64,000 bases of DNA from positions 1 to 64,000 of the IMG/VR virus record IMGVR_UViG_3300027836_000009; one strand, written 5' to 3'. How positions within the stretch are numbered: position 1 is the stretch's first letter; each line of letters begins with the position of its first letter. Under the pieces are notes generated by a model. That model searched no databases and was not told the DNA's origin. It worked only from the letters and a program-made list of their open reading frames with translations. Of the stretch, positions 11,743 to 43,309 are shown in pieces. Source of the stretch: a virus. The translations under genes and the position numbers were made by a program.

Positions 11743-11744
11743 TT

Positions 11745-15679: not shown

Positions 15680-17093
15680 AGTTCATTGTATATCATTTAT
15701 TACGCAAGGTGAACCTTTTGACAAAGGATTACCATTAGGACATTTAAAACAAAGATTAATTAACGAATATAGTCAATGCTTTGACAAAGTAACGATTTAT
15801 ACAGTAGACGATATCCCTGAAGAATTCCGAAGAGAATATGACCCTGAGATTTTTGAAACACGGTTTAACCCAGGATACCATAATGTAGGATATGGCGCTT
15901 TTAAGCCATATCTTATATTAAAAACGATGGAAGAATCGGATTGCGATATTATTTATTGGAGAGATGGTAATATTGATAAATGCCCATATTATTTGACAGG
16001 AAAAGAATCAGCAAGAAACTTATCAATAGATATATTATACGATATAAAAACTGATATATTTGTGCCGTTTGAAAATCCTAGCTGGCTAATTGGTAACACA
16101 ACTCCTTCTAGTGTGTTTGAAAAAATATTAGGTAGCGCTGCTGATAATTACGTGCAGTACCCACAAATGAATGCTGCATTAATAATCTGTAAGAAAACTG
16201 ATTATGTAAAAAATCTGCTAGAAGAATGGCTTAGTTGGATGAAACACGATGAGTTCTTTTATAGAGAACAACCTATTAATCACCCTGGCTACAATATGAA
16301 CTGTGGTGACCAAGGAGTTTTAAATGCAATTCTTTTAAAAGAAATAAGAAATGGAAATTTACCAGAAGGCTGGCCTTTTATAGGTTATGAAGATAGACAT
16401 TTTACATTAGACAAGTTATACAAAATAGAAAATATAAAAAAAATTATGAATACTGTTACTATTAATGAACACACGTTTTTCCCTGACAAATTAAGTAAAA
16501 ATCCTGTTATTGTCGATCTTGGATGCAGTGAAGGTGGATTCTTAAGAGATTTTAAAAATCAATTTGAGTATGGCACATATATAGGTGTCGAGGCAAATCC
16601 ACTTAATTATGAAAAAATTAAAAATCTTAACGATGATAATACATTCATACTTAATACAGCAGTTTGTTCTGAACAACGCAATGACGCAACAGTATCTTTT
16701 GTTGTTGCTGTTAATGATGGATCTTTAGGTTCATTTGTGTTTGATGAAAACAGTGTATCTTTGGCAAAGCCAGGAAACACAACTGAGAGGTTTACTGTGC
16801 CTACGATAAAAATATCTGAAATTTTTGAAAAATATAACTTAGAGAAAATTGATGTATTAAAAGTTGACATTGAAGGCGCAGAATGGGAAGTATTAGAAAG
16901 TCTTGATAAAAACATATTTGACAAAATACATCAAATATCTGTAGAATTCCATGATTTTATTGACCCAACTAAAAAAGATAGAACGAAAGAAATTGTTGAA
17001 AGACTTGAGTCGTTTGGGTATAAATCAATAATCAGTGGGGCTCCGTGGTTTTATGGAACAGAACACTTTGACTGTACGTTTTATAAAGATTAA
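15669..17093 (+). CDS. Glycosyltransferase - FkbM methyltransferase fusion
   Basis: Starts inside the previous gene (11-nt overlap). Residues 1 to about 250 look like a GT-A-type glycosyltransferase (YGAFKPYLIL, IIYWRDGN, DQGVLNAIL at 214-222). Residues about 275-474 are an FkbM-family methyltransferase: VIVDLGCSEGG (280-290), YIGVEANP, LKVDIEGAEWEVLE. A single polypeptide could add and O-methylate a sugar. It ends the cluster, followed by a promoter-like repeat and a terminator. Confidence 0.8.
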   Translation: MMNKVHCISFITQGEPFDKGLPLGHLKQRLINEYSQCFDKVTIYTVDDIPEEFRREYDPEIFETRFNPGYHNVGYGAFKPYLILKTMEESDCDIIYWRDGNIDKCPYYLTGKESARNLSIDILYDIKTDIFVPFENPSWLIGNTTPSSVFEKILGSAADNYVQYPQMNAALIICKKTDYVKNLLEEWLSWMKHDEFFYREQPINHPGYNMNCGDQGVLNAILLKEIRNGNLPEGWPFIGYEDRHFTLDKLYKIENIKKIMNTVTINEHTFFPDKLSKNPVIVDLGCSEGGFLRDFKNQFEYGTYIGVEANPLNYEKIKNLNDDNTFILNTAVCSEQRNDATVSFVVAVNDGSLGSFVFDENSVSLAKPGNTTERFTVPTIKISEIFEKYNLEKIDVLKVDIEGAEWEVLESLDKNIFDKIHQISVEFHDFIDPTKKDRTKEIVERLESFGYKSIISGAPWFYGTEHFDCTFYKD

Positions 17094-19598: not shown

Positions 19599-19787
19599 AT
19601 GAATAACGGACACTTAAAAACTTTTGAGGATTTCGCAAAAGAACTTAAGAACAAAATCCCACAAGAAGGTGATAAGAAGCCTGAGAAAAAAAGCAAAATC
19701 ATATTAGGGCCAGATCCTCAGAACTCTTCGTCACCAACAAGTCAGGAAACTAATGTAGGAGCAAAATATCCTAATGGCGGATTATGA
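19599..19787 (+). CDS. Small protein with capsid-targeting-like N-terminus (62 aa)
   Basis: ATG 19599 is preferred over ATG 19572, which lies in the promoter motif. The N-terminus HLKTFEDFAKEL matches the K-T-[FY]-x-[DE]-F core of the shared leader, here followed by AKE instead of LNE. The rest is Pro/Ser/Lys-rich and probably disordered. It overlaps the next gene by ATGA. I infer an internal head protein. Confidence 0.65.
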   Translation: MNNGHLKTFEDFAKELKNKIPQEGDKKPEKKSKIILGPDPQNSSSPTSQETNVGAKYPNGGL

Positions 19788-19966
19788 AAAAAACATTAAA
19801 AACATACGAAGAATTTATTGGTGATAAGTCAATGGATAAAGTTATTAAACATAGCAAGACAGTTAAAGTTGTGTCAACTAATACAAACAATCCTGGAAAA
19901 GAATATGACGATGAAGAAGATGGTGGAGACACACTTAATCAAAGTCCTTTAAATGGAAACAGATAA
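19784..19966 (+). CDS. Small protein with capsid-targeting-like N-terminus (60 aa)
   Basis: The start LKTYEEFIGD is nearly the T4 internal protein leader KTYQEFIAE. The body is hydrophilic with an acidic run (DDEEDGGD) and is probably disordered. Coupled to the upstream gene by ATGA. Likely a packaged head protein. Confidence 0.65.
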   Translation: MKKTLKTYEEFIGDKSMDKVIKHSKTVKVVSTNTNNPGKEYDDEEDGGDTLNQSPLNGNR

Positions 19967-19967
19967 C

Positions 19968-20072
19968 ATGCCTGAGAGGAAAAGCTTTAGGGAATTATGG
20001 TCAATGAACTTGACCCTTTATTTGTTTATTCTTATTAAGGATACTTTAAGAAAGAATAAATATAGAAAATAA
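19968..20072 (+). CDS. Possible micro-protein with hydrophobic segment (34 aa)
   Basis: ATG directly after the previous stop, TAA at 20070. Basic ends flank LTLYLFILI, which could sit in a membrane. Its tight spacing argues for translation, but at this size a chance frame cannot be excluded. Confidence 0.35.
   Translation: MPERKSFRELWSMNLTLYLFILIKDTLRKNKYRK
20058..20065 (+). promoter_or_regulatory. Weak class II promoter-like motif AAATATAG
   Basis: A diverged version of the ATATATA(A/G/C) core, 16 nt before the 384-residue targeted protein. Overlaps the end of the micro-ORF. Confidence 0.25.
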
Positions 20073-20081
20073 TAAATTATA

Positions 20082-21236
20082 ATGTCATTACTAAATTACC
20101 AAGATTTCTTATTTGAAACATACGGCAAAATAAAATTGAGTGAAGCTCGTGAAAACTTGTTGAGAACAATATCAAAGTCGTATCTTTTAGAAGAAGAACA
20201 GTATGTTTTAGATTTTGTTATTCAAGAAGGCTTAACCAACGATTTCTTTTCGTTATATGAATCAAACGATGATATTATTCAAGAAAATTTTATTCAAAAA
20301 GCTAAAGAAAGATACGATAGAGCTAAAGAAGAAATAAAATCTCGCGGTAAAGAAGCACTCGATAAAATGAGTGATGCTACTAAAAATCTGGTTCAAGTTG
20401 GTGGAAACATATTAAAGCCAATTAAAACAATAATGCAAAAAATTGGTGAAGCAATTAAAAAGGCTTGGGAAGAAGCAAAAGCAATTGCGAATGAAGCAGT
20501 AAACAAGTATAAAGATAAGATATCCGAGAAAATCAAAAACTTAATTAAAGATAGCGATAAAAAGAAAAAGCTTAAAGACGAATTAAAAAATTTAGGCGAG
20601 ATGATTAGCGCAGGCACAAAGTACATCACAAGCGGTTTTTCTACTGACGCTGAAAAAGCTGCAGCTGCTGCTGCCTCATCTGATGATAAAAATGAATCTT
20701 TTTTAAACTACATTGAGTATGCAATATTAAACGAAATAACATCGGAAATTAATAAAGGCGTAAACATTGATGATATAATTGAATCCCTTAATGAAGAAGG
20801 ACACGGTCACGAGAAAAAAGGAGGGTTAAACATTCCCTTTGTAAGTAAAGTGATGAGCAAAATAGGTCATATGCCTCCGTTTAAATACTTTCACGATTTA
20901 GGCGCAAAAGCTGAAGATTTTACAAATAACAAATTATCACGAGCAAGTTTCTTAGTAAATAAAGTTGCTGATGGGCCTGCTCCTTATGAATATGTTGTTT
21001 TTGGATCTCTCGTTGGTGTTGCTGTTGGTTATTACACTGAAACATTTGCTAAAACTGGTGCTTTAGGCATACTTGCTGAATTTGGTATTCCAGGACTAGT
21101 CATTTTAAAAAGTTTAATTGGTGGAATAGGTCTTGCTTTAGCAATTTACGGAATTGCTGAATCCTTAGTTGGTAGCGAAGGCGAAGAGAAAAAGGAAGAA
21201 GAGAAGGAAGAAGACGAAAAAAAAGAAGAAGAATAA
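20082..21236 (+). CDS. Capsid-targeted helical membrane protein with acidic tail
   Basis: Leader MSLLNYQDFLFE ends in L-F-E, a gp21-type cleavage site. Residues about 70-185 are Lys/Glu/Ala-rich amphipathic helices, likely coiled coil. Residues about 300-362 contain two or three hydrophobic segments (VVFGSLVGVAVGYY, LVILKSLIGGIGLALAIYG). The C-terminus is an EEKKEEE-type acidic tail. A packaged protein with membrane segments would suit delivery into or across the host inner membrane during infection. That role is inference; no enzyme motif is visible. Confidence 0.7.
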   Translation: MSLLNYQDFLFETYGKIKLSEARENLLRTISKSYLLEEEQYVLDFVIQEGLTNDFFSLYESNDDIIQENFIQKAKERYDRAKEEIKSRGKEALDKMSDATKNLVQVGGNILKPIKTIMQKIGEAIKKAWEEAKAIANEAVNKYKDKISEKIKNLIKDSDKKKKLKDELKNLGEMISAGTKYITSGFSTDAEKAAAAAASSDDKNESFLNYIEYAILNEITSEINKGVNIDDIIESLNEEGHGHEKKGGLNIPFVSKVMSKIGHMPPFKYFHDLGAKAEDFTNNKLSRASFLVNKVADGPAPYEYVVFGSLVGVAVGYYTETFAKTGALGILAEFGIPGLVILKSLIGGIGLALAIYGIAESLVGSEGEEKKEEEKEEDEKKEEE

Positions 21237-22306
21237 TGACATTAAAACTTTACGAACAGTGGTTACTGACTGAAGGTGGCTGGGCTACAACAAAAACACA
21301 AGGGACAGTTATCAAGCCTCTTATTATTGCTGACTGCGTTAAAAAGACACGAGTTATTGCTGAAGAGTTTGCAGCTCACTGTAAAACTGTTGAACTGCCG
21401 CCTCTTGAATTTACAAAGCCAATCGGCAGCGGTACATGGTATGAAGAAGATATCGTATCACAGCCTGACAAAGTTTACGGAGACGTAGACTTTATGGTGT
21501 CTTATCCTGTTTTGGAATTAACAGGGAAAGATCGTCGTGCTGATGAAATCGCAACGGTTAAACTTTACAATAAAGAACTGATTGACTTCTTAAAGAATAA
21601 AAGATATTCGTTTATTGATATTGCTGAAACAATGACAGTTTCAAATGATGTATCATTAAAGTTTATTATGGAAGTTGAAACACCTGAAGGTGAAGGATGG
21701 ATTCAAGTAGACATTGTTGTTACGCATACTGATTATAAAGAATGGGCAATCTTTAGAATGACTCCTATTCGTAATGTAAAAGGATTTGTACTTGGTAACT
21801 TATATTCTTCTTTTGGAGAAGTTCTTGAAGTAAGTATTCAGCCTCGTGGAGTTAGAGCAAAATTTGCTGGTACTCAAATGGTTGCATATAGTAAAAGAGC
21901 TGGTACTGAGGAAAAACTTCTTACAGCAAACATTCAAACATTTATGCATGATATTGCTCGATTCTTTTGGGAAACAAGTGGCACTGATAAACCTTATGAA
22001 GAATCGTCTTCATTAAAAAGATGGAAAGGTATCAATCCACAGAACCCACGTTTTGAAGATCTTTGTGATGGGATTCGTGGAGTTGCTGAAACACTTGAGC
22101 AACTTGGTGAATTTGGCAGTGTTATCAAATATAAATCAGCAAAAGAATTATTAGATGCAGTAAAGAAGAGATATATAGAAAAGATGGAAACTGCAGGTAA
22201 CGCAGAGAAATTAAACAAAGCTGAAACGCCATCGGCAATTGCAGCTGCTGAAAAATTACGTAAGTTTGTTAAGGATTACACCGAATTAGCAGACAAGCTA
22301 TTATAA
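21236..22306 (+). CDS. Capsid-targeted nucleotidyltransferase-fold protein
   Basis: The leader LKLYEQWLLTEGG fits the shared targeting sequence with an L-T-E site at 11-13. The body has a polymerase-beta-type nucleotidyltransferase pattern: IGSGTW (63-68, GS loop), GDVDF with Asp83 and Asp85, and WIQVDIVV with a third carboxylate Asp159. The C-terminal half is helical. It could transfer NMP to RNA, protein or a small molecule. The family includes CCA-adding, oligoadenylate-type, antibiotic and MNT-type enzymes, and I cannot place it further. It is coupled to the preceding targeted gene (TAATG). Delivery with the genome, as for T4 Alt, is the inferred mode. Confidence 0.65.
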   Translation: MTLKLYEQWLLTEGGWATTKTQGTVIKPLIIADCVKKTRVIAEEFAAHCKTVELPPLEFTKPIGSGTWYEEDIVSQPDKVYGDVDFMVSYPVLELTGKDRRADEIATVKLYNKELIDFLKNKRYSFIDIAETMTVSNDVSLKFIMEVETPEGEGWIQVDIVVTHTDYKEWAIFRMTPIRNVKGFVLGNLYSSFGEVLEVSIQPRGVRAKFAGTQMVAYSKRAGTEEKLLTANIQTFMHDIARFFWETSGTDKPYEESSSLKRWKGINPQNPRFEDLCDGIRGVAETLEQLGEFGSVIKYKSAKELLDAVKKRYIEKMETAGNAEKLNKAETPSAIAAAEKLRKFVKDYTELADKLL

Positions 22307-22309
22307 GGT

Positions 22310-22930
22310 ATGGAGTCAAACATATTAGTTGCTATAGTCACAGGGATATCATCAATCACAGTTGCGGTCATTACGGTCGTTGTTAAGGATTGGCTTGATA
22401 AAAGGAAAGTTGCTGAAAAAACAGCAAAAGATGAATGTGTTAAACATGAAGATTTGGACAACATGATGTATGTTCAAGAATTCATTGAAGCATTACGATT
22501 AGAATATAATTTTGACAGAGCTGGCATTTGTCAATTTCACAACGGAGGAAAGTTCTTTAAAGGACATTCAATGAAAAAATTTTCAATGAGTTTTGAGACA
22601 ACCAAACCAGGTATTGAAAAGATTAAACGTGGTATGCAAAATATCATGGTTTCAGAATTTCCTCATCTTATAAATGGTTTATTAAATGAAAATAGTTTAA
22701 CCATATATCAAGATACACAAGGCTTCCCAGCAACAACACGTGAAATGATATCTAACGGCATTGTTCAATCTATAAATATTCCTATCCGTGGTTTAAGCGG
22801 AGATCTTGCAGGATTTGTATTCTTGCACAATATTGGGGATCCTGGGGATCCAAGTGAAATGGTTAGTGAAGACGCAATTGATGATCTTTGCCGCCGAACA
22901 GATCAGATCTCAGGATACATTTTAAAATAA
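22310..22930 (+). CDS. Membrane-anchored GAF-like domain protein
   Basis: Residues 5-25 form a membrane segment (LVAIVTGISSITVAVITVVV). The rest, with FDRAGICQFHNGG, SLTIYQDTQGFP, INIPIRGLSGDLAGFVFLHN, follows the alternating strand/helix pattern of a GAF-type sensor domain. It starts 3 nt after the nucleotidyltransferase gene but lacks the targeting leader. Ligand and function are unknown; phage versions may act in the host membrane. Confidence 0.6.
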   Translation: MESNILVAIVTGISSITVAVITVVVKDWLDKRKVAEKTAKDECVKHEDLDNMMYVQEFIEALRLEYNFDRAGICQFHNGGKFFKGHSMKKFSMSFETTKPGIEKIKRGMQNIMVSEFPHLINGLLNENSLTIYQDTQGFPATTREMISNGIVQSINIPIRGLSGDLAGFVFLHNIGDPGDPSEMVSEDAIDDLCRRTDQISGYILK

Positions 22931-22941
22931 ACAAAATCATA

Positions 22942-23229
22942 ATGAAAAACTTATTAACAGGCTTAAAATGGTTAAAGACTGAAATACTTAATATGTATTC
23001 TTCAAGACCCACTTTTTTTTCAAAAAAACGTGTTGAGTCAGGAGTTGCATTTCTTATAGGACAATGGGGTATGGTGTTCTTTCTTTTAGAAAAACATACT
23101 ATTATGACAACTAGTGATTTAGCAATATGGGCTGGTATTGAATTTGCAGTATCAGGATATATGCTTAGCCAAATACAAAAAGAAAAGAAATCAGCAGTTC
23201 CGACTACAGAAGAAATAACAGAAAACTAA
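22942..23229 (+). CDS. Two-segment small membrane protein, holin-like (95 aa)
   Basis: ATG 22942 is in an A-rich leader; upstream in-frame codons belong to the previous gene. Two hydrophobic segments at about 32-50 (SGVAFLIGQWGMVFFLL) and 59-76 (LAIWAGIEFAVSGYML) are followed by a charged, Glu-rich tail. Size and topology fit class II holins, but no family signature is seen and it lies away from the transglycosylase. Confidence 0.55.
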   Translation: MKNLLTGLKWLKTEILNMYSSRPTFFSKKRVESGVAFLIGQWGMVFFLLEKHTIMTTSDLAIWAGIEFAVSGYMLSQIQKEKKSAVPTTEEITEN

Positions 23230-23232
23230 TAT

Positions 23233-23430
23233 ATGAAATACATTAAAACATTTGAAGCTTATTTGAATGAGCTTGAACTTCCTTTAAAAGGTGAAGACGA
23301 AAACACAAAAGGCAATAAAGACGTTGCAGCTGGTGAAGAAGAAGATGTAGTGAAAGGCGATGAAAAAGCTGACGCTAAAGGCGAAGAGGAAGAAGAGAAA
23401 GAAGAAGAAATTGATGCTGACGAAGCATAA
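23233..23430 (+). CDS. Capsid-targeted highly acidic small protein (65 aa)
   Basis: Leader MKYIKTFEAYLNE with L-N-E at 11-13. After the predicted cut the protein is almost entirely Glu/Asp/Lys (EEEEEKEEEID...). Such an acidic polypeptide may help condense counter-ions or space packaged DNA. It starts 3 nt after the holin-like gene. Confidence 0.7.
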   Translation: MKYIKTFEAYLNELELPLKGEDENTKGNKDVAAGEEEDVVKGDEKADAKGEEEEEKEEEIDADEA

Positions 23431-23444
23431 AATTATTTTATACA

Positions 23445-23819
23445 ATGAAAAACTTACAAACATACCAAGAATTCTTAAATGAACAAGAAGAAATTCTAAA
23501 CGAAGACATCAATTTGATAACAACAGTTATGTTGCTAGGTCAGGCTACGATTGTTGCAGCTGCAGTAATGGCAAGAGCGGGATATGATACACCCGATGAA
23601 AAATTAGCAGAGTGGTGGAATAAATGGAAAAGAGATCGTAGAGTTAATAAGATTTTAGATAAACTTAATGCTGATTCAGAAGTTCAACAATTTCTTACAT
23701 TGCCTCCTAAAGAACAAGAAGGTAAATGGAAAAAACTTGTAGATACAAAACTTAATAAAGAGGATAAAGATCTTCTTAATTCAATTTCTAGAGACCGAGT
23801 TAAAAAAGGTAAAATATAA
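23445..23819 (+). CDS. Capsid-targeted small protein with hydrophobic segment (124 aa)
   Basis: Leader MKNLQTYQEFLNE is the closest in the window to the T4 internal protein start (TYQEF) and ends in L-N-E. A hydrophobic stretch TTVMLLGQATIVAAAVMA (about 26-43) may be a membrane segment. The rest is Lys/Asp-rich helix. Its stop overlaps the next start (TAATG). Confidence 0.7.
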   Translation: MKNLQTYQEFLNEQEEILNEDINLITTVMLLGQATIVAAAVMARAGYDTPDEKLAEWWNKWKRDRRVNKILDKLNADSEVQQFLTLPPKEQEGKWKKLVDTKLNKEDKDLLNSISRDRVKKGKI

Positions 23820-24280
23820 TGAAACACATAAAAACATTTGAGTCATACGTTAAAGAAGGCGTTGAGAAAAACAGCAAAGTTCTTGAATCCGAAGAATCTG
23901 TAAATGAATCAACAGATATAGATGTATCTGCATTAAGCGATGGTATGCTAAAAGAATTACGTAAGGTATTTAACGGTGTAAAGCATGGACTGTCTAATAA
24001 CGATTTACAGTTATTAGCAAAGATTACGATGGAGATCAAGAAAAGAGGTATTAAAGAATCTGTAGATGAATCTGTTATTAATGAAGGTATCATGTCATTA
24101 ACCGCATACTATAAGGATTATGATAGAGATGTAACTACTCCTGCTAAGAAAATTGATGATATACTTAATAAAGAAATTAAATCAGTTAGTAGCAAAAATG
24201 CTGTATTAGATTTGATTACTGATTTGGTTGAAGAATATGCAGTTGAATATGCAGACAACCGAGATCAAGAAAGATATTAA
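23819..24280 (+). CDS. Capsid-targeted protein (153 aa)
   Basis: Leader MKHIKTFESYVKE with V-K-E at 11-13. The remainder is helical and charged with a further potential I-N-E site (VINEGIM). No enzymatic motif is recognised. Confidence 0.7.
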   Translation: MKHIKTFESYVKEGVEKNSKVLESEESVNESTDIDVSALSDGMLKELRKVFNGVKHGLSNNDLQLLAKITMEIKKRGIKESVDESVINEGIMSLTAYYKDYDRDVTTPAKKIDDILNKEIKSVSSKNAVLDLITDLVEEYAVEYADNRDQERY

Positions 24281-24293
24281 AAATAAAATAAAA

Positions 24294-24599
24294 ATGAAAA
24301 ATATACACACATTTGAAGAGTTCTTAAATGAAGGAAAAGTTTCTTTTTCTAAAATGGAATTCACAGTAGCTTCGTTTGTAGATAACAAAGGACTTGCTAT
24401 TCAGTTTCTAGCAAATAATAAAACTTTAGACAATTTTAGTGCTAATGCAATGGTAAATGCAATAACTGCAATGATAAACAAAAACATATCTGACTTAAAT
24501 GGACTTTTATATTATGAAATTGGTAATGTAGCTGCAGGTATAGTATTTAGATTAGATCAATATGAATTTGGTAAAATGATAGAAAAACGACTTAAATAA
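24294..24599 (+). CDS. Capsid-targeted protein (101 aa)
   Basis: ATG 24294 is chosen because it yields the leader MKNIHTFEEFLNE (L-N-E at 11-13); an upstream in-frame ATG at 24228 lies within the previous gene. After the leader follows a compact alpha/beta domain without recognised motif. Confidence 0.7.
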   Translation: MKNIHTFEEFLNEGKVSFSKMEFTVASFVDNKGLAIQFLANNKTLDNFSANAMVNAITAMINKNISDLNGLLYYEIGNVAAGIVFRLDQYEFGKMIEKRLK

Positions 24600-24600
24600 T

Positions 24601-25146
24601 ATGAAATACGTACATACATTTGAAAGTTTCTTAAATGAAAAATTTGCTGATAAATATCCTAAGCAAATGTATATTGAACTACAGCCTAATGACATTTCTG
24701 ATTATGCTGATGAATTAGCAAATCTTGTAAATGTAGCATATGCTGATAAAGGCGGTAATCTTGAAATTAAGAACGGCGCAGATTTAAGAAAGTCTGACAT
24801 TACTTATTGGGTAGCAAAAGATATTGATGAAGATCCTAATGCAGATGTTGCAGTTGGAGGTAAGAAAACACCACATGGTGTTAAGATGACAGTTATGGGC
24901 CAAGATGGTTCTCGTGAAGCAAAAAAGGACGCAATCTTAAAAATGATTGAACTTATGAAGACTCGTGGTTTTTATGCTGAACTTGATACTGACTTAGCAC
25001 AAAAGTTAAATCTTACTCACGTTAAAGACGAAAAGAAAATACGTGATGTATTAAACAAAGACATTACTTATTTTAAAGACGGATCTTATGATCGTGATAT
25101 TGCTGGAGATACACATAGAAAAGTTCTTGTAGGAATGCCAAAATAA
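24601..25146 (+). CDS. Capsid-targeted protein, possibly acetyltransferase-like fold (181 aa)
   Basis: Leader MKYVHTFESFLNE with L-N-E at 11-13. The body has DELANLVNVAYADKGGN, a WVAKDIDEDPNADV strand pair and DGSREAKKDAILKMIELM, an order loosely reminiscent of GNAT acetyltransferases. The acetyl-CoA loop is not convincing, so the fold call is weak. It begins on the base after the upstream stop plus one. Confidence 0.65.
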   Translation: MKYVHTFESFLNEKFADKYPKQMYIELQPNDISDYADELANLVNVAYADKGGNLEIKNGADLRKSDITYWVAKDIDEDPNADVAVGGKKTPHGVKMTVMGQDGSREAKKDAILKMIELMKTRGFYAELDTDLAQKLNLTHVKDEKKIRDVLNKDITYFKDGSYDRDIAGDTHRKVLVGMPK

Positions 25147-25154
25147 TTCTAATC

Positions 25155-25859
25155 ATGAAATACATTAATAATTTTTCGGGTTGGGTTAACGAAAGTGTAT
25201 CAAGCAATGAAGCTGATAAAATCGTTTATGGAAATCAGCCAAAAGATTTACAAAAGTTAGCAGACGATAAAAACGATCCTATAAAAAATTGGTTTATAGA
25301 AAAAGGATTCGTTGATACGATTGTAAAAGAAACACCACTTAATAGCGGATCTCAAACAAGAAAAGATCTTGATACTATAGTTGAGAAAATGTCAAAAGCT
25401 ACGCCTGAAGATTTAGCGTTTGCTCGTTACATAGATGATGAAGCAAATATATCAAAAACTTTTATTGATTTATTAGGTAAATACGGACATAAAGTTTTTG
25501 AAGAAGAACATTTGTTTGTTGAAACTCAATCCGACGCAATCTTATTTTATTTAAAAGACGTAATTAATAGACCAAGACCGTATCAACTTGCTTATTATTA
25601 TAAAATTGATTTATACCCACTTATCAGAACTAACGCAATGACAGCTTCTTATCCAAGTGGACATGCTTTAGCAGGTATTATGATGAGTGAACATTACGCA
25701 AAACTTTATCCTGATGCTTCAGTTGAATTAAAAGAATTAGGAAACAAAATTGCTAACAGTAGAGAACTAACAGGAATTCATTATTCTTCTGATACAGAAA
25801 TATCTCGTAAGATATCAAAAATCATTATTGATAATAACTTGCTACAAATAAAAAAATGA
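25155..25859 (+). CDS. Capsid-targeted PAP2-family phosphatase
   Basis: Leader MKYINNFSGWVNE ends in V-N-E. All three PAP2/acid phosphatase motifs are intact: K-x6-RP (Lys134, Arg141, Pro142), PSGH (167-170) and SR-x5-H-x3-D (Ser202, Arg203, His209, Asp213). Histidine-based phosphoester hydrolysis is therefore expected. There are no multiple membrane helices, so it resembles soluble class A acid phosphatases rather than integral lipid phosphatases. Possible targets are nucleotides, lipid-linked phosphates or phospholipids at the entry site. Being packaged is inferred from the leader and neighbours. Confidence 0.85.
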   Translation: MKYINNFSGWVNESVSSNEADKIVYGNQPKDLQKLADDKNDPIKNWFIEKGFVDTIVKETPLNSGSQTRKDLDTIVEKMSKATPEDLAFARYIDDEANISKTFIDLLGKYGHKVFEEEHLFVETQSDAILFYLKDVINRPRPYQLAYYYKIDLYPLIRTNAMTASYPSGHALAGIMMSEHYAKLYPDASVELKELGNKIANSRELTGIHYSSDTEISRKISKIIIDNNLLQIKK

Positions 25860-26059
25860 AATTCTTAAAGTTCTTTTTTATAACAGGAACACAAAGGTGG
25901 GGTTCATTTATGTGGCTAGGTACACATTATAGCATGACACAAACAGATTGGCATTGGGTTCTTGAAACCTCATTATGCATAGGATTAGATTTGTTGCTTG
26001 TAATAGGTGTATTTTTAGAATGGAAAGAAATTCATAAACATAAAGATTCCGAAAACTAA
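25856..26059 (+). CDS. Small membrane protein (67 aa)
   Basis: ATGA-coupled to the PAP2 gene. One clear membrane segment at about 37-54 (TSLCIGLDLLLVIGVFL) after an aromatic region; charged C-terminus. No family is recognised. Confidence 0.65.
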   Translation: MKFLKFFFITGTQRWGSFMWLGTHYSMTQTDWHWVLETSLCIGLDLLLVIGVFLEWKEIHKHKDSEN

Positions 26060-26079
26060 ATAGACAGTTGTGTATATAA
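26054..26079 (+). promoter_or_regulatory. Class I phage promoter motif (AACTA-N12-TGTATATAA)
   Basis: AACTA at 26054-26058 overlaps the end of the membrane protein gene; TGTATATAA is at 26071-26079, 31 nt before the DUF4494-like gene. Confidence 0.65.
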
Positions 26080-26110
26080 TTTAAAATATTATTAATCTAA
26101 ACAAATTATT

Positions 26111-26332
26111 ATGGCACACTGGACAGTAAGAGTTAAGACTACTGAGGAAACTGATGACGGAAAGCTAATTAGAAAAATTGAGCCTTTCTTAGTAAAAGCA
26201 GATACAATTGAAGAATCACAAGCAAGAATTCGCGAGTACTTTAAAGGTATGACACTTGATTATGAATTTCATAGTGTAAGTAAAAGCAACATCATCGGTT
26301 ACATTGACAGTGAAGGTAATGTTTCAGAATAA
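26111..26332 (+). CDS. DUF4494-like small protein (73 aa)
   Basis: The pattern WTVRVKTTEETDDGKLIRK followed by PFLVKADTIEESQARI resembles DUF4494, a small family found mainly in Bacteroidota and their phages. Function unknown. It has its own class I promoter and a terminator 19 nt downstream. Confidence 0.55.
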   Translation: MAHWTVRVKTTEETDDGKLIRKIEPFLVKADTIEESQARIREYFKGMTLDYEFHSVSKSNIIGYIDSEGNVSE

Positions 26333-26350
26333 GAAACAATAAACGACTTT

Positions 26351-26374
26351 AGAGGGACTTTGTCCCTCTTTTTT
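26351..26374 (+). terminator. Rho-independent terminator
   Basis: Eight-bp stem AGAGGGAC / GTCCCTCT with a TTT loop and T-rich tail; nearly the same stem as the terminator at 708. Confidence 0.92.
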
Positions 26375-26385
26375 AATTATCCCTT

Positions 26386-27360
26386 ATGAGTATAGAAAAA
26401 GTTTATATAGGTGATCTATATGTAGGAGATCTACATACTACAGATCCACAGTTTGAGCAAAAACTGAATAACATCAAAAATATAGTTGCTCAAGATTCTT
26501 TCTTAGAATTGTATCAAGCTATTGATGATGCACTCCCACAACAACTTGTAAAAGTTATTGGACCAAAACTTAAAAATCTAATCCAAACCTATTATTTAGG
26601 CGGTCCTGAAAATTTGCATATTCTTATAGAGCAAATTAAAAATCCAATCAACATAACACACGAATTAAGATCTTTTGTAGATCCTATTGAAATTTTAACC
26701 AATCATTATTCTTCTCTACCAAGAGAGTTCTTTGAAATTCTTTTTAAGGAACAGCCTGGTGATATGGGTCCTAGCGAATTACTTTTTACAATTTTTACAA
26801 GTCTTTCAAAAAGCGATAAAGGTGATTTATATGATTCTGAATATGATCGTAAGATTGAAGTAAAAGGCAGAAATGGTCGTTTGAGTGGAAAATGCAAAAT
26901 GCTAACTGGCTTATGTGCACTTGAAAAAATTAACAAGATTTTTGACTCAAACATTGAAAGCAGAGGAATAACAAAAGGTATTTTAGTTTTTGACATATAT
27001 AAGTTATTGAAACATAAGGACCTTTCTTTTGAAGAAGCTAAAGAATTCATTGACTCGCTTTCACAATTCCCAGAATCTTTTACATCAAGTAAACAACATC
27101 TTATTTTAAAAATATTGCATGGCCTATCCAAACCTGAAGATTTAGTTAACATTTTTATTGCTGTTCAAATTTTAAGTTACACAGATCATGGAGGTTTTAA
27201 TGATTTGTTAATCTTTAGTGATAAGAATCGTAAATGTCAGTTACTTAATGTAACCGATGCAACAATTGATGAAATTCTTGAGTATGGAAATCTTATAAGT
27301 TTCTCACCTTGGTATACAGGACATGAAACATCAATAGGTTTGATAAGAAAGACTCGATGA
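26386..27360 (+). CDS. Putative PD-(D/E)XK-type nuclease-like protein
   Basis: A 324-residue soluble protein. GPSELLFTIF (Glu131), GDLYD (Asp147) and KIEVKGRNGRLSG (Glu158, Lys160) form the E...D...ExK order of PD-(D/E)XK nucleases. The rest is helical. No targeting leader. Related phage proteins are uncharacterised; a role in DNA processing or terminase-like trimming is possible. The call rests only on this motif. Confidence 0.45.
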   Translation: MSIEKVYIGDLYVGDLHTTDPQFEQKLNNIKNIVAQDSFLELYQAIDDALPQQLVKVIGPKLKNLIQTYYLGGPENLHILIEQIKNPINITHELRSFVDPIEILTNHYSSLPREFFEILFKEQPGDMGPSELLFTIFTSLSKSDKGDLYDSEYDRKIEVKGRNGRLSGKCKMLTGLCALEKINKIFDSNIESRGITKGILVFDIYKLLKHKDLSFEEAKEFIDSLSQFPESFTSSKQHLILKILHGLSKPEDLVNIFIAVQILSYTDHGGFNDLLIFSDKNRKCQLLNVTDATIDEILEYGNLISFSPWYTGHETSIGLIRKTR

Positions 27361-27368
27361 ATATATAA
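27361..27368 (+). promoter_or_regulatory. Class II (late-type) promoter motif ATATATAA
   Basis: Occurs as GAATATATAA, 19 nt before the 596-residue targeted protein, directly after the previous stop. Confidence 0.5.
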
Positions 27369-27387
27369 AGAAAATAAAACACAAAAC

Positions 27388-29178
27388 ATGAGTCTTTTAA
27401 ACTACCAAAAATTTATATTAAATGAAGTTAGTATATTTAAAGATAAGTATAAAAAAGGAGGAGGTAAAAGTTTTACATTAAACACAACGTCTTCAAATTC
27501 AGACGCTGTAGAATTTGCGAATTTAATTATTGCTCAAGGAGCTGACGGAAATGGTGAATATCAAAGAGTTGATTATGATGAAAACGCGCCTACTATTAAT
27601 TGGAAAGGGGGAACAACGCATTCTATAACTATAGAAGATAAAAACGGTAAACGATTTAATCTATCATCTAATAGTAAAGATATATTGGGATATGTTTGTT
27701 TGGAATATAGCGAAAAATCTTTAGGCGGGAAACTTGATGCTGCAAAATATGAACAAGGAATTGTTTACTTTTATAATACTCAAGTTATGGGATTAGACGA
27801 AGATCAAGCTATTGCGCAAGGATCTCTTAATGATTCTGATACAGGATGGTTTACTAAACTTGAGAAAACATGTTTAGGCGTTGCTAAACAATTAGATTCT
27901 AATTTAGGACCTTTAATTTGGTCAGGAAGCGATTCTGTAAATACTAGTGCTGACTGGAAAAGCAGCGATAAAACGCCTAAGACTGACGTATATTCAGGAA
28001 AATCAAATAGCGGTAAGTTTTCTGTTAAAAAAACAGGTGGCTCACAATTAATGAGCGGGACTACTGAAGCAAAAGATGTGTTTAACGCTGCGCTTCAATA
28101 CTATAATCACTTTGAGAAAAAGAAATCTATCGTGTCTCCTGCTTTTATTGAAAATTTATCAAAAAAGGTTTCATATGTAGTTAAATCTGAAGAAGGCATT
28201 CAAAAACTTAAAGCAAATGCTCAAGAAGCATGGGTTTCTTTTAGATTAGGAACAGTATTAGATACAATACGCAAAAATAAACTTACATTGCCTATTGTTT
28301 TTCAAAAAGATCCAAATCGCCCAGCAACTGATAAAGCAATATCTGACGCAGCAGACGCTCACACAAAAGCTGAATTTGCATCAGCAGGAATTGGTGATAG
28401 ACGTGGAAATTGGGAAAGCAATTTAATTAAAGGCATTGATGACGGCCAGAAAATTTTTAATGGCTGGTGGGAAAAATCTTATTTGCCTACATTAGCATCT
28501 GTGCAGAAAGATGTATTATTAACAACCGTTTTAGAAGCTACTCAAGATCATCGTGAAGTACAAGAATCTTTAAGGGATGTTTTTCAAAATGATCCTGATT
28601 TTTTAAAGTGGCTTATTTATGAAGCCGCAACAGGGCAAGTAAAATTTAGCGGAAATGTCAATATTGATTCATCCACTGGTGTTACAGCAATTGCTGATAA
28701 GTTTTTGATATTTAATGATACTGGACTTGCTGAGCCTATTGCACCAATTACTATTGGATGGGCTAAGGATCATATTAAAGAAGTTAAAACAACGGTAGGG
28801 TTTAAGTCATCAGGAAGTAGGTCAGCTTCATCTATAAGATTAGCGATAGGTGGTAAATTAGACGAAAGTGAATCTCTTCAATTATCAGGCATGGAAAGAA
28901 TAATTTTTGAAGAATTTAATAAACTAAATAATGATTTATTAGCATTAAATGAATCCTTTATTGATTCTTTTAAGAAAACACTTAATAACGTAAAAACTTT
29001 TGCGGCTCAAACTTGGACTGCTGTGACAAACGCAATTTCTTATTTTTATCAAAATATAATAGTAAGAATTTCTAAAGCATTTACAGATGTATTCAGTCAA
29101 GGAATTGATGCTATATGTAGTTTTTTTGGTTTTACAATAGACGGAGCAGTTGACGGAGAAATTAACATAAGTTTTTAA
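27388..29178 (+). CDS. Large capsid-targeted protein with nuclease-like motif (596 aa)
   Basis: Leader MSLLNYQKFILNE (L-N-E at 11-13) is close to that of the 20082 gene. The segment TPKTDVYSGKSNSGKFSVKKTGGSQLMSG (Asp200, Lys214) resembles the TPKTD...SLKK...QLMSG core of PD-(D/E)XK-like phage nucleases, with Ser in place of the second acidic residue. The C-terminal 100 residues hold hydrophobic helices (FAAQTWTAVTNAISYFY), perhaps a membrane-active part. It may be a nuclease delivered with the genome; catalytic competence is uncertain. Confidence 0.6.
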   Translation: MSLLNYQKFILNEVSIFKDKYKKGGGKSFTLNTTSSNSDAVEFANLIIAQGADGNGEYQRVDYDENAPTINWKGGTTHSITIEDKNGKRFNLSSNSKDILGYVCLEYSEKSLGGKLDAAKYEQGIVYFYNTQVMGLDEDQAIAQGSLNDSDTGWFTKLEKTCLGVAKQLDSNLGPLIWSGSDSVNTSADWKSSDKTPKTDVYSGKSNSGKFSVKKTGGSQLMSGTTEAKDVFNAALQYYNHFEKKKSIVSPAFIENLSKKVSYVVKSEEGIQKLKANAQEAWVSFRLGTVLDTIRKNKLTLPIVFQKDPNRPATDKAISDAADAHTKAEFASAGIGDRRGNWESNLIKGIDDGQKIFNGWWEKSYLPTLASVQKDVLLTTVLEATQDHREVQESLRDVFQNDPDFLKWLIYEAATGQVKFSGNVNIDSSTGVTAIADKFLIFNDTGLAEPIAPITIGWAKDHIKEVKTTVGFKSSGSRSASSIRLAIGGKLDESESLQLSGMERIIFEEFNKLNNDLLALNESFIDSFKKTLNNVKTFAAQTWTAVTNAISYFYQNIIVRISKAFTDVFSQGIDAICSFFGFTIDGAVDGEINISF

Positions 29179-29231
29179 CAAAAGAAATTAAAGATAAACG
29201 ATTAGGACCGTTTGCTTGTTACGACAAGTTT

Positions 29232-29272
29232 AGACTGCAGAGATTCGCTATCATCTGCAGTCTTCCTTTTTT
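29232..29272 (+). terminator. Rho-independent terminator
   Basis: Ten-bp perfect stem AGACTGCAGA / TCTGCAGTCT around a 12-nt loop, then TCC and T6. A smaller hairpin (CTTGT-TACG-ACAAG) lies just upstream at about 29215-29228, so the 3' UTR of the targeted-protein gene has two stacked hairpins. Confidence 0.85.
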
Positions 29273-29274
29273 AG

Positions 29275-29299
29275 AACTATTTCAAATTGATGAATATAA
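29275..29299 (+). promoter_or_regulatory. Class I phage promoter motif (AACTA-N11-TGAATATAA)
   Basis: AACTA at 29275-29279 and TGAATATAA at 29291-29299, immediately behind the terminator and 16 nt before the next ATG. Confidence 0.65.
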
Positions 29300-29315
29300 T
29301 ATAAAAATCATAATT

Positions 29316-29555
29316 ATGTCAAACGAAAATTTAGAAAAATTAGAAAAATTAGAAAACATAACATATCCTGATTGGGATAACGTTATCGTACAATTGTGCC
29401 AAGGTGAAAAAGGAATTGCTAACATCAAAATGCAACGTCAAGATATGGAAGCAATTCAAGCATTACATGGAAGTGAAAGAACTGAAGTTATTGAAATGAT
29501 GCTTCAAGCACTTGAAGAACAAGTTAAACAATCTGAACCAACACAAGAAGATTAA
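29316..29555 (+). CDS. Small acidic hypothetical protein (79 aa)
   Basis: Starts behind terminator and class I promoter. N-terminal leucine/lysine heptad-like run (NLEKLEKLENI) and a Gln/Glu-rich end; probably helical. Its stop overlaps the next ATG (TAATG). Confidence 0.7.
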   Translation: MSNENLEKLEKLENITYPDWDNVIVQLCQGEKGIANIKMQRQDMEAIQALHGSERTEVIEMMLQALEEQVKQSEPTQED

Positions 29556-29881
29556 TGCCTTACGTAAAAGATTTTACGGAACTTACAGGTAAAGGATCTT
29601 TTAGTATGGAAGTTCCTAATTGGGTGCCTTTAACGATTGAATATGGATATGATCGTATAAGTTTAGCAACATATTTTTTCTGGCGCATATCAGGAACACA
29701 ACACACCTTTCGTATTAATTATAACGATTTAATGACAGAAACAAATGGGAATTTGGAAGAACATATTTCAACGTTTCTCAAAGGATTCAGAAACGACTAT
29801 CTTACCTGGGCCCGAGACGGTTTCTCCGTTGACTGGATGCGAGAATACCACAGAGAATACAGAAATTTTATTGAACTTTAA
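29555..29881 (+). CDS. Hypothetical protein (108 aa)
   Basis: Translationally coupled to the preceding gene. Aromatic-rich, soluble, no recognised domain (VPLTIEYGYDRISLATYFFWR). Other frames over this stretch are shadows. Confidence 0.65.
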   Translation: MPYVKDFTELTGKGSFSMEVPNWVPLTIEYGYDRISLATYFFWRISGTQHTFRINYNDLMTETNGNLEEHISTFLKGFRNDYLTWARDGFSVDWMREYHREYRNFIEL

Positions 29882-29888
29882 AGAGGGA

Positions 29889-29896
29889 ATATATAC
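29889..29896 (+). promoter_or_regulatory. Possible class II promoter motif ATATATAC
   Basis: Lies 13 nt upstream of ATG 29910 and 8 nt after the previous stop. Only the core is present. Confidence 0.3.
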
Positions 29897-29909
29897 TAAA
29901 ACAAAAACA

Positions 29910-30488
29910 ATGAGTGATATTAAAACTTTCCAATGGCTTAAAGGCGAAAGATCAGGGGAATTCGTAAAATGGGATGGTACAATAGTTCAAGACGGGGATC
30001 TTAACTTTTTACAATTTGAAGACGGATCACGAGGTAACGAAAATTTATTAAACGATTTTTTCATTGAGGTACCTAGTGAACACGAGCCTTTTTACATTAC
30101 GGAAAAAATGGAAAATAAGTATGCACAGGATGTTCAAACAATGAATGACCATTTGCATAATTCACATGAATTAAAACAACAAGATTCGTTTCCAGCACCC
30201 GGCATTTTTCAAACTAACACACAGCCAGATAACCCAATTGCTAAATTGTTAAAAGATAGTAAGAAAATAAAATCATCTATAGAAATTTCGATTGTAGTTG
30301 ACATACCACCGATTGAACTTATGAAGGTTTTGTCTGATTCTTATGACGATGGTGAAAAACGAGTTCTTGATTATTTGTCAAGCAGTTTAAGTTCAGAAGA
30401 TATTAAGAAACAAATAGCCCATCAGATTTGGGTAAATTCATTCGCAAAAAAGAAAACGAAAAGCACAAGAATAAATGAAGCAATATAA
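29910..30488 (+). CDS. Hypothetical protein (192 aa)
   Basis: ATG 29910 is favoured: it follows an A-rich leader, whereas upstream in-frame starts overlap the previous gene widely. Begins SDIKTFQWLKGE, faintly like the targeting leader but lacking the E-F-L-N-E end. The C-terminal part (PIAKLLKDSKKIKSSIEISIVVDIP ... helical end) looks like a compact phage domain of unknown function. Overlaps the Nudix gene by 14 nt. Confidence 0.65.
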   Translation: MSDIKTFQWLKGERSGEFVKWDGTIVQDGDLNFLQFEDGSRGNENLLNDFFIEVPSEHEPFYITEKMENKYAQDVQTMNDHLHNSHELKQQDSFPAPGIFQTNTQPDNPIAKLLKDSKKIKSSIEISIVVDIPPIELMKVLSDSYDDGEKRVLDYLSSSLSSEDIKKQIAHQIWVNSFAKKKTKSTRINEAI

Positions 30489-31017
30489 CGTATTATTTGA
30501 AGATAAGTGGTTTCAAGTTGTTGACATAGAAGGCCAGATAGGTTTAAAGAACAAAGAAATGTCAGTTGCTATTATGCCATATCGTGTAAACGAATTAGGA
30601 GTAATAACTGAAATAGGATTACTTAAAGAACTAAATTATTTTAGAGAAGGAAACTATGCACAAACACTTATCACAGGAACAATTGAAAAAGAAGACGATT
30701 CCCTTTTGTTAGCGGCAAAAAGAGAACTTCTTGAAGAAGGTGGATTTGAACTTACTGAAGATGATAACGAAAGATGGTTATTCTTAGGGCCTGTTTATTT
30801 ATATAAGACTAGTGACCAAATGATCCCCGTATTTGCTGTTGACGTAACTGGAGTTGAACAAAGAAAAGCAGACGGAGACGGATCGGTTAAAGAAGAAAAG
30901 TCTGAATTAGAAATGGTTGAAATAGGAAACGGAATTTCATCGTCTGAAGCATTAGTATTATCATCCTTCTTAAAACTATTTAATTATATGTACGCTAAAA
31001 CTTTAAATTATGTATAA
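30475..31017 (+). CDS. Nudix hydrolase
   Basis: The Nudix box spans about 68-91: GTIEKEDDSLLLAAKRELLEEGGF, in pieces G68, REL (83-85) and EEGG (87-90); the early Glu is replaced by Asp at the expected spacing. A 180-residue size matches ADP-sugar/ADP-ribose-type Nudix enzymes, which hydrolyse nucleoside diphosphates linked to another moiety. In phage infection it could remove NDP-sugars, dinucleotides or oxidised nucleotides. Substrate cannot be read. Confidence 0.85.
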   Translation: MKQYNVLFEDKWFQVVDIEGQIGLKNKEMSVAIMPYRVNELGVITEIGLLKELNYFREGNYAQTLITGTIEKEDDSLLLAAKRELLEEGGFELTEDDNERWLFLGPVYLYKTSDQMIPVFAVDVTGVEQRKADGDGSVKEEKSELEMVEIGNGISSSEALVLSSFLKLFNYMYAKTLNYV

Positions 31018-31363
31018 CAGAAAAGAAAGAAGAAATCTTGAAAAACGCATAGGTCTTTTTAAAGAAGTTAAAGATATGCCAGCTGATAAAAAAGCTGAGT
31101 TTTCAAGAAGAAAGCAAGAAGCAGGTCACCAAATTTATTTAAAGAATCTTGAAGATGTTACAAATAAATTAATGGAAGCTGAAGCAGAAAGATATTCACA
31201 ACAACTTGCAAAACTTGTAGAAAGTGGTATTGAACATTCTGACGCAGAAAAAATCCTGGAAAAAAACATCACAACTGAAGAAGCAAGAAAAGAAAAGTTA
31301 GCAGAACGTCGTGAAAGACAAGCCGCAGCTTACGCTGAAAAACTTGCAGCAACTAAAAAATAA
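31010..31363 (+). CDS. Charged helical hypothetical protein (117 aa)
   Basis: Overlaps the Nudix gene by 8 nt. Extremely rich in Lys, Glu, Arg and Ala, probably one long helix or coiled coil (LAERRERQAAAYAEKLAATKK). Might be a chaperone or scaffold-like protein; no family is recognised. Confidence 0.7.
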   Translation: MYNRKERRNLEKRIGLFKEVKDMPADKKAEFSRRKQEAGHQIYLKNLEDVTNKLMEAEAERYSQQLAKLVESGIEHSDAEKILEKNITTEEARKEKLAERRERQAAAYAEKLAATKK

Positions 31364-31367
31364 CATT

Positions 31368-31826
31368 GTGCAATTGAATCTTTACATCACATTCGACGAT
31401 AAGTCAAAAATCAAAAAGTGTTTCTTAAACCTACGTAAGTATCTTATTATAGAAATCTCGGAGGTAATTGAAAGCTTAGGCTTTGACCAAAATGATTTAG
31501 ACGACTGTAAGTCGTTTATTATAAATCAAGAAATCTTAAAATTGATTAAGGATGGTAGTAGCGGTAGGAAATTATTAGGAATCGTTTATAGCAATCCAAA
31601 TCTTAACGATGAAATTGCTAGAGGAATAATTCATTACGTTGAAGAAGTTAAAAATATTGAAAAAGCAATATTCTTAACTGACAAAGATGTACATGATGAA
31701 TTTATTGAACTATTTGAAGAAGCTATCTTTTACCCTACAATGAAAAAGGTTCATATTGTTGAATGCAAAGTTGTTCCTATTGTCTGGCTTGACCGACTGA
31801 ATGAATTAAACGAAGAATTTATATAA
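31368..31826 (+). CDS. Hypothetical protein (152 aa), GTG start likely
   Basis: No ATG is available near the 5' end; GTG 31368, 4 nt after the previous stop, is the best start (TTG 31374 next). Alpha/beta protein with VIESLGFDQNDLDDCKSFI and AIFLTDKDVHDEFIELFEEAIF; no known family. Ends before the bidirectional terminator. Confidence 0.65.
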   Translation: MQLNLYITFDDKSKIKKCFLNLRKYLIIEISEVIESLGFDQNDLDDCKSFIINQEILKLIKDGSSGRKLLGIVYSNPNLNDEIARGIIHYVEEVKNIEKAIFLTDKDVHDEFIELFEEAIFYPTMKKVHIVECKVVPIVWLDRLNELNEEFI

Positions 31827-31859
31827 AAAAACTGCAGGTTTAAACCTGCAGTTTTTTTT
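31825..31859. terminator. Bidirectional terminator between convergent genes
   Basis: A perfect 22-nt palindrome ACTGCAGGTTTAAACCTGCAGT (in two halves, centre at 31841/31842) is preceded by A6 and followed by T8, so it works on both strands. It separates the + run from the two minus-strand genes. Confidence 0.92.
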
Positions 31860-32052
31860 ATTCCTCATCATTATCTTTTGGCTTCTCAAGTTTTTCTTGA
31901 GTTTGCTGAATTGTTTTTAATAAGGTTTGCTTAGGACCCATATTTCTCATAGCCAATGGCTTATTAACTTTTGGCTTTGTTGTAAACGGCTTCTTTTCTT
32001 GTTGTTTACCCAATGACAAAAAGTCTCGAGTAAACTTGGCGTTTTGTTTCAT
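31858..32052 (-). CDS. Small basic Lys/Gln-rich hypothetical protein (64 aa)
   Basis: Second gene of a two-gene minus-strand operon, 2 nt after its partner; its 3' end reaches into the bidirectional terminator. Basic, Pro/Lys/Gln-rich and likely disordered, with acidic tail. No family is recognised. Confidence 0.65.
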   Translation of the reverse strand: MKQNAKFTRDFLSLGKQQEKKPFTTKPKVNKPLAMRNMGPKQTLLKTIQQTQEKLEKPKDNDEE

Positions 32053-32054
32053 AA

Positions 32055-32306
32055 TTAATTAGGTATAGCTGGTGACGATTTAGGTTTCTCACCAGTTTTT
32101 AAATATCCTTTAATTGCTTGCATATTATGATGCGCAATCGTAATCTTATCTTGAACCCAAGCTTCTAAATCAACATCATCATTAATCATACCAGCGATAT
32201 CTTGAGCATCTTTTGATATTTCTTCCAATTTTGGTTTATACATAAACCCTTCAGACTCTTCGTTCATATCTTGAACGTATTCATTATAGCTTTTAACTGT
32301 ACTCAT
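32055..32306 (-). CDS. Small acidic phage protein (83 aa), weak leader similarity
   Basis: Minus-strand gene starting at 32306. The beginning STVKSYNEYVQD is a weak relative of the targeting leader (K-S-Y-x-E-Y-V). The central part DIAGMINDDVDLEAWVQDKITIA resembles small conserved proteins of T4-like and marine myoviruses whose function is unknown. A class II motif on the minus strand lies 17 nt upstream. Confidence 0.7.
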   Translation of the reverse strand: MSTVKSYNEYVQDMNEESEGFMYKPKLEEISKDAQDIAGMINDDVDLEAWVQDKITIAHHNMQAIKGYLKTGEKPKSSPAIPN

Positions 32307-32323
32307 TTTCGTTATACTTTATT

Positions 32324-32331
32324 TTATATAT
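32324..32331 (-). promoter_or_regulatory. Class II (late-type) promoter motif, minus strand
   Basis: Read on the minus strand the sequence is ATATATAA within AAATATATAAAATAAAG, 17 nt before the start of the 83-residue gene. It forms a divergent pair with the + strand motif at 32355. Confidence 0.5.
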
Positions 32332-32354
32332 TTATGTGTCATTTACATAAAGTA

Positions 32355-32362
32355 ATATATAG
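32355..32362 (+). promoter_or_regulatory. Class II (late-type) promoter motif ATATATAG
   Basis: Twenty nt upstream of the 764-residue virion gene, opening the tail/baseplate operon. Confidence 0.5.
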
Positions 32363-32382
32363 AAAAAATAGCAAGTATAATA

Positions 32383-42940: not shown

Positions 42941-43309
42941 ATGAAGTACATTAAAAAATTTGAAGATTATGTTGCTTCTTATAAAGACAGCAATCTTCAA
43001 AATGATGACGAGGAACAATTCAAAAAAGCTGCAAAAGTAACAACTAACGAAAGTGGTTTTGTTATTGAATATAATGATGATAAAGTTACAATTGAAAGCG
43101 GTCTTGATGAAGGTAATGAAGAAGTTCCTGTAGATGAAATTGCTGAAGCACTAAAAAAACTTGGCGCTGAAACTGTTACTTTTGAAAATGAAGATGGTGA
43201 AACTGAATCTCATCCAGTTAATGAGTTTTTAAGAAAATTGAATCCGCTTCGTTGGAAATTATCAAAGAAACATAGGTCAATTGCTGGTGCAATAAAAGAC
43301 GACGAATAA
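42941..43309 (+). CDS. Protein with capsid-targeting-like N-terminus (122 aa)
   Basis: MKYIKKFEDYVAS repeats the leader pattern but lacks the Glu at 13, so it may not be cut there. The rest is acidic with a small alpha/beta domain (VTIESGLDEG, VTFENEDGETESHPVNEFLRKL) and a basic end. It is the only clear leader-bearing gene outside the 19.6-29.2 kb island. Confidence 0.6.
   Translation: MKYIKKFEDYVASYKDSNLQNDDEEQFKKAAKVTTNESGFVIEYNDDKVTIESGLDEGNEEVPVDEIAEALKKLGAETVTFENEDGETESHPVNEFLRKLNPLRWKLSKKHRSIAGAIKDDE

Follow-up and report, generated by a model that had tools for sequence, protein, structure and literature searches.

Twelve otherwise unrelated proteins of a virus contig (G000, IMG/VR record IMGVR_UViG_3300027836_000009) begin with a common short leader, read here from the sequence, with a probability of about 0.88, as a capsid-targeting tag of the phage T4 type that is removed by a protease. 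The contig is linear and counts 92,113 bases, and the stretch analysed, called the window, comprises its bases 1-64000. A reading-frame check of the window found an open reading frame (ORF) at each of the twelve starts listed in a preliminary description of this DNA, and the proteins are named here by the position of these starts. As that description held, the leader ends in [LV]-x-E in nine of them (20082, 21236, 23233, 23445, 23819, 24294, 24601, 25155 and 27388); the remaining three end in A-K-E (19599), I-G-D (19784) and V-A-S (42941), the last having no acidic residue there. The proposed consensus, MKxxKT[FY]xx[FYW][LV]NE, applies overall and is loose in 20082, 21236 and 27388, which begin MSLLNY or MTLKLY, with one additional residue ahead of the Glu in 21236 and 27388. 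The bodies are indeed unrelated, as an all-against-all BLAST of the twelve proteins deprived of their leader gives nothing better than E = 0.02. The tagged genes are closely packed between 19.6 and 25.9 kb, with frequent overlaps of a few bases, and 27388 and 42941 lie more distantly.

The leader in related phages

In relatives, the leader conforms to MKxI-x-T-F-E-x-F-L-N-E followed by S/A/G, conservation ending sharply at the Glu. In 273 ORFs from 13 related contigs, selected only by the leader's first half (M[KRNSQ]...[FY][EDNQSGK]), the unselected half displays F in 76%, L/I/V in 77%, N in 52%, E in 71% and S/A/G in 48%, and the composition past the S/A/G position is that of the background. 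The first aromatic residue, equivalent to position 4 in T4, was itself a selection criterion; the second one, equivalent to T4 position 7, was not used in the selection and is F, Y or W in 85% of these ORFs.

A leader profile of nine columns was built from the 273 ORFs, with a threshold score of 11. Although built from other phages, it scores 13 of the contig's 90 ORFs at 11 or more, versus none of 61 internal pseudo-starts, and its nine best among 672 ATG ORFs correspond to eight of the twelve proteins plus a new one. A leader-like start at 32306 on the minus strand (MSTVKSYNEYVQD) scores 5.8, under the threshold, and was excluded from the count. Three further leader proteins, at 84109, 90800 and 91198 in contig coordinates, were found when the rest of the contig was searched, all beyond the end of the window. 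Scores of at least 11 are reached by 50 of 442 ORFs in G009, 29 of 313 in G012, 31 of 293 in G013, 28 of 143 in G003, three of 267 in T4 and none of 154 in Flavobacterium phage MaF61. The latter, the nearest complete isolate record by its counterpart of the protein encoded at 35313-36818, was rejected as a model and serves as a negative control, displaying no leader in the parts read and no match to Peptidase S77, the family of the gp21-type prohead protease.

A DNA pattern of the leader matches at least 119 stretches in IMG/VR, with a single record holding as many as 11 exact copies among the matches listed, and the reversed pattern gives zero matches there. On the contigs of 16 relatives, 237 tagged proteins fall into 143 unrelated body families, with up to about 50 of them per genome. 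A second [LI][NST]E is present within 15 residues in 19% of the leader proteins versus 3% of body stretches, a trait also of propeptides that are cut at several sites (PMC5694885).

Orthologs of 20082, 23445, 23819 and 25155 in G003, G006, G009, G012, G013 or G028 have kept their leaders. Among five orthologs of 24601, M1 and the Glu (E13) are the only invariant leader residues. In the 21236 family, also with five orthologs, the leader varies in length and sequence (MTLKLYEQWLLTE, MKLYIKLFEEFIAE, MKSIKLYEAFLTE, MRNLQLYNEWLTINE and MLSYKEWVLNE) around an invariant E|GGW junction. This constancy despite varying leader length speaks against the common start being an element acting at the DNA or RNA level, such as a translation enhancer or a recombination site, or a residue of gene duplication. 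Codons for leader Thr (ACA 78% versus 37%) and Ser are skewed, hinting at copies spread by recombination, but identical leader peptides within one genome differ in their DNA (five spellings for six copies), the codon use of Phe, Glu, Asn and Leu is near that of the bodies, and conservation stops at the Glu residue. Such an element was thus rejected on the codon evidence, and this explanation of the common start is considered extremely improbable.

Resemblance to T4 and the prohead protease

The T4 leader is established in the literature, as is its use in finding the ip genes of T-even phages (PMC3012670, PMC12373910). The likeness to this leader put forward in the preliminary description withstood a blind ranking, in which the profile, free of any T4 sequence, was run on the 1,580 T4 ORFs that start with ATG and count 40 codons or more. 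The four highest scores are those of gp61.1 (18.5), IPII (18.1), IPIII (18.1) and IPI (10.9), so that the three internal proteins rank second, third and fourth. Other T4 head proteins that are cut (Alt, gp21-gp24, gp67 and gp68) are not highly ranked; the profile therefore responds to the capsid-targeting leader carried by internal proteins rather than to any gp21 site. The best leader score in T4 belongs to gene 61.1 (NC_000866.4, 18966-19130, minus strand), whose 54-residue product gp61.1 (MKTFKEFIKEDM...) may, judging by this start, be an unrecognised internal head protein.

In T4 IPIII, targeting depends on residues 4 and 7 and processing on residues 8 and 10, and an Asp at position 10 prevents processing with targeting retained (PMC9026906). 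The conserved leader columns coincide with these targeting and processing residues, and 19784 bears exactly the Asp of the position-10 change. Both systems thus have a short N-terminal leader on unrelated proteins, the key residues aromatic-x-x-aromatic-[IL]-x-E and a cut site after the Glu; in relatives of the window phage, the S77 protease adjoins the portal, scaffold and capsid genes, as in T4. They differ in that the leader counts 13 residues here and 10 in T4 (an additional M-K-x-I/L stretch), in the number of tagged genes (about 13 to 50 per genome or fragment versus three), in the frequent second cut site, in the fusion of the protease to the scaffold and in the phages themselves, which are related here to those of Bacteroidota.

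The gp21-like protease for which the preliminary description had proposed a search of the rest of the genome was found in the sister phage G012 and in the larger leader-bearing records, but not in the 92-kb fragment. G012 (238 kb) has 55 of 74 proteins in common with the window contig, at a median identity of 50%, and carries the gp21-type (S77) protease, portal and capsid genes; it represents the missing half of the window phage genome better than any other available record. A match to S77 is found in 12 of 23 leader-bearing IMG/VR records, including each of the nine that reach 136 kb or more (in one case below the Pfam cut-off).

In six relatives (G009 and G012-G016), the protease ORF spans 576-637 residues and encodes a protease domain with a scaffold-like part behind it. 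The motif derived from the leader end, [LIV][NST]E[SAG], was counted in these six phages and compared with expectations from shuffling. In the scaffold part, 23 occurrences stand against 2.7 expected, in protease residues 161-200 seven against 0.2, and in residues 1-80 of the major capsid protein ten against 0.4, without enrichment in the portal (2 versus 1.4), the capsid body (0 versus 1.3) or a neck-like protein (2 versus 1.7). Taking all ORFs together, a roughly two-fold enrichment of the motif persists past residue 40, so the comparison between proteins weighs more than the raw enrichment. Its presence in the scaffold, the junction and the capsid N-terminus, but not in the portal or the capsid body, fits the leader end being the cut site of the protease, and is the pattern expected of an enzyme that would cut its other substrates at the same motif. 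A conserved [VI]NE[SA] site at residues 163-173 of all six protease ORFs (e.g., L261, L280, L270 and L293) is likely the autocleavage site that would free the protease.

The same distribution of the cut motif, together with the blind recovery of three T4 internal proteins, makes it very unlikely that the leader addresses proteins elsewhere, i.e., to the tail, the baseplate, the membrane or a replication compartment, and merely resembles the T4 signal. A few leader genes do stand among tail genes (42941) or at a distance from head genes, but none of the Pfam-annotated cargo proteins is a core tail or replication protein.

Several observations count against a capsid-targeting tag cut by a prohead protease. 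No protease of the window phage itself was found on the 92-kb fragment, although this absence says little because the portal and major capsid genes are missing from the fragment as well. The nine large S77 records amount to about seven independent ones, as several are near-duplicates. Proteases of the S77 family are widespread among T4-like and jumbo phages, and the co-occurrence of leader and protease alone is hence weak evidence; phage PTm1 possesses the protease, and the 67 kb of it that were read show no such leader. Within the window, 42941 (9.7) and 27388 (7.2) score under the threshold, and two of the twelve proteins, 19784 and 42941, have no Glu and thus no usable cut site.

Cargo, hosts and comparable systems

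Packaging and cleavage of the tagged proteins are inferred with high confidence from these sequence patterns. The aromatic residues of the leader would dock the tagged proteins onto the scaffold core in head assembly, trapping unrelated cargo in the prohead, where the gp21-type protease would cut after the Glu of [LIV]-x-E. The mature protein would then remain in the head with the DNA and be expelled into the host with the genome, as are T4 IPI-III. Enzymatic cargo (nucleotidyltransferase, GNAT-like, PAP2 and others) would act immediately, most probably on the take-over of the host or on its defence. Ejection and an anti-host function are likely by analogy with T4, whose three internal proteins disable different GmrSD restriction enzymes (PMC12373910).

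Known domains are few among the 237 tagged proteins and comprise RimK ligase, DUF5856, cytidylyltransferase, KTSC, cREC, GNAT and PAP2. A 2'-5' RNA ligase/Acb1-like cargo protein is encoded in the sister phage G012 (L280:16822-17370) behind a leader without Glu, and one cargo protein of a relative matches the PHROG annotation 'internal head protein'. An Alt-type ADP-ribosyltransferase (ART) is not claimed, the match to ART-PolyVal being weak (E 0.0011), and PADLOC gave only marginal matches when run on the cargo.

This repertoire bears on the possibility that the tagged proteins do enter the prohead and are cut, but serve a large head as core, scaffold or DNA-packing proteins instead of being delivered as effectors. 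Indeed, the T4 core includes proteins that are cut (gp22, gp67 and gp68), a number of the cargo proteins are small and acidic (net charge of -16 for 23233 and -12 for 42941), and some (the 90800 and 91198 types) are conserved across relatives in the manner of core genes. Delivered cargo is nevertheless a better fit to the 143 unrelated families with their patchy distribution and to the RimK ligase, 2H phosphoesterase/Acb1-like, cytidylyltransferase, GNAT and PAP2 domains, and a structural role for the whole set is judged unlikely. For the capsid-targeting tag, a wider reading is favoured with some reserve: one removable leader would be a general address label for tens of unrelated proteins per virion in these large phages, constituting an arsenal available before gene expression, with enzymes that degrade defence signals, modify the host or act on membranes.

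Proteins packed into the head meet host defences before other phage proteins do and are hard to find, as their bodies have nothing in common. A leader recognisable in sequence provides a catalogue of candidate injected effectors from metagenomes (143 families, most of them without known function). If the wider reading is true, finding such effectors becomes a sequence search and the set is the largest yet described on a single capsid-targeting tag. The leader also indicates that the T4 targeting rule holds far beyond T-even phages, and it may offer a loading signal for phages of Bacteroidota. No description of the leader in Bacteroidota phages was found in the open-access literature. The hosts are probably Bacteroidota bacteria because the nearest isolate records infect Flavobacterium, Prevotella, Tenacibaculum and the host of phage PAU, now classed in Sphingobacterium (PMC3738902).

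Phage PAU (Sphingomonas/Sphingobacterium; L014, JQ362498.1) is itself comparable, about 13 of its proteins, at about 21349-34836, beginning with MK[TS][LI]xKLYE(xKLNE). Their genes surround those of the portal, protease (gp151) and capsid, two of the proteins bear the annotation 'internal capsid protein', and the KLNE|S of the leader also occurs near the N-terminus of the capsid protein. The leader sequence is however distinct, only 5 of 61 ORFs in 40 kb passing the present profile. A third leader type, M[KHN][STKH]LxxY[IL]xEKLHLNKG, was observed at 686-6291 of a protease-bearing record (L066, IMGVR_UViG_3300029305_007168). The phages phiKZ and SPN3US (protease gp245) likewise pack a large proteome into the head, cleave C-terminal to Glu (A-x-E) and have multi-site propeptides (PMC5694885), but their propeptides mostly exceed 100 residues and are not one short tag common to unrelated proteins. 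In phage P1, an N-terminal signal loads the injected protein DarB into the head (PMC9024508), whereas this concerns a single protein of another family with a different signal.

Individual tagged proteins and neighbouring genes

All twelve tagged proteins of the window are encoded on the plus strand. The first two are short: the 62-residue protein at 19599..19787 has its leader in residues 1-15 (MNNGHLKTFEDFAKE, end A-x-E; score 16.4), and in the 60-residue protein at 19784..19966, Asp replaces the Glu (MKKTLKTYEEFIGD; 14.9). The latter has a weak match to phrog_7673, 'internal head protein', over residues 5-36 (E 0.03). The 384-residue protein at 20082..21236 (MSLLNYQDFLFE; 13.2) has a long, helical body with a hydrophobic stretch and low-complexity matches of tape-measure type, and its leader is kept in G003 (MSLLTYNDFLLE) and G006 (MLNYTDFLIE).

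The 356-residue protein at 21236..22306, with leader MTLKLYEQWLLTE, has GGWATTKTQ as predicted mature start. Its AlphaFold2 model has a predicted local distance difference test (pLDDT) score of 80, with leader residues 1-15 below 50 and the body at good confidence, and Foldseek relates it to Pol beta/lambda (E 6.9e-6, probability 1.0, template modelling (TM) score 0.33), suggesting a Pol-beta-like nucleotidyltransferase fold for the modelled body. A sequence search against solved structures gave no match for this protein or for one ART-looking cargo protein.

Next come the very acidic 65-residue protein at 23233..23430 (MKYIKTFEAYLNE; 19.8), whose net charge was given above for the part past the leader, and two proteins with an extra site. 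One, of 124 residues at 23445..23819 (MKNLQTYQEFLNE; 22.0), displays a second LNE at 18-20 and a leader kept in the G013 and G009 orthologs; the other, of 153 residues at 23819..24280 (MKHIKTFESYVKE; 17.3), displays an extra VNE at 28-30 and a leader kept in G009 (MKNLQTYEEFLNE). The best score of the contig, 27.0, is that of the 101-residue protein at 24294..24599 (MKNIHTFEEFLNE), followed at 26.8 by the 181-residue protein at 24601..25146 (MKYVHTFESFLNE). For the latter, a model with a pLDDT of 70 matches an ArsN-type GNAT in Foldseek (E 2.2e-4, TM 0.47), tentatively pointing to a GNAT-acetyltransferase-like fold.

A PAP2-type phosphatase of 234 residues is encoded at 25155..25859 (MKYINNFSGWVNE); its match to Pfam PF01569 (E 8.8e-6) is slightly below the curated cut-off, and leader-bearing orthologs exist in G003, G012 and G028. 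Elsewhere (L020, L047/L048), leader-bearing small proteins contain segments recurring across contigs, GAPxWxDSDAPDAEGRFRDL and YFKGISKSTAxKKKAQM, and are sometimes fused to a PAP2 phosphatase.

The two distant proteins are those of 596 residues at 27388..29178 (MSLLNYQKFILNE), for which no homolog was found, and of 122 residues at 42941..43309, whose leader (MKYIKKFEDYVAS) has the aromatic targeting residues and which has no homolog among the relatives compared. Beyond the window, 90800 (MKNYSEFITEG) and 84109 (MKTFKEFKYTG, without E) score above 11, and the protein at 91198-92109 starts with MKKFTEWVGAIREAE. It belongs with its orthologs to a domain family, MKKFxxxxxxIREAE...KSPADL...FF, in which [IV][RH]E|AE is conserved near the start; in L018, a domain of this type is fused behind a standard leader within a 982-residue protein.

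Among the neighbouring genes, the reading of 35313-36818 as encoding a tail sheath was dropped, as MaF61 has a separately annotated one. Upstream of the island, at 1046-17093, stands a run of sugar-nucleotide, glycosyltransferase-like and phosphatase-like genes, judged from N-terminal appearance alone.

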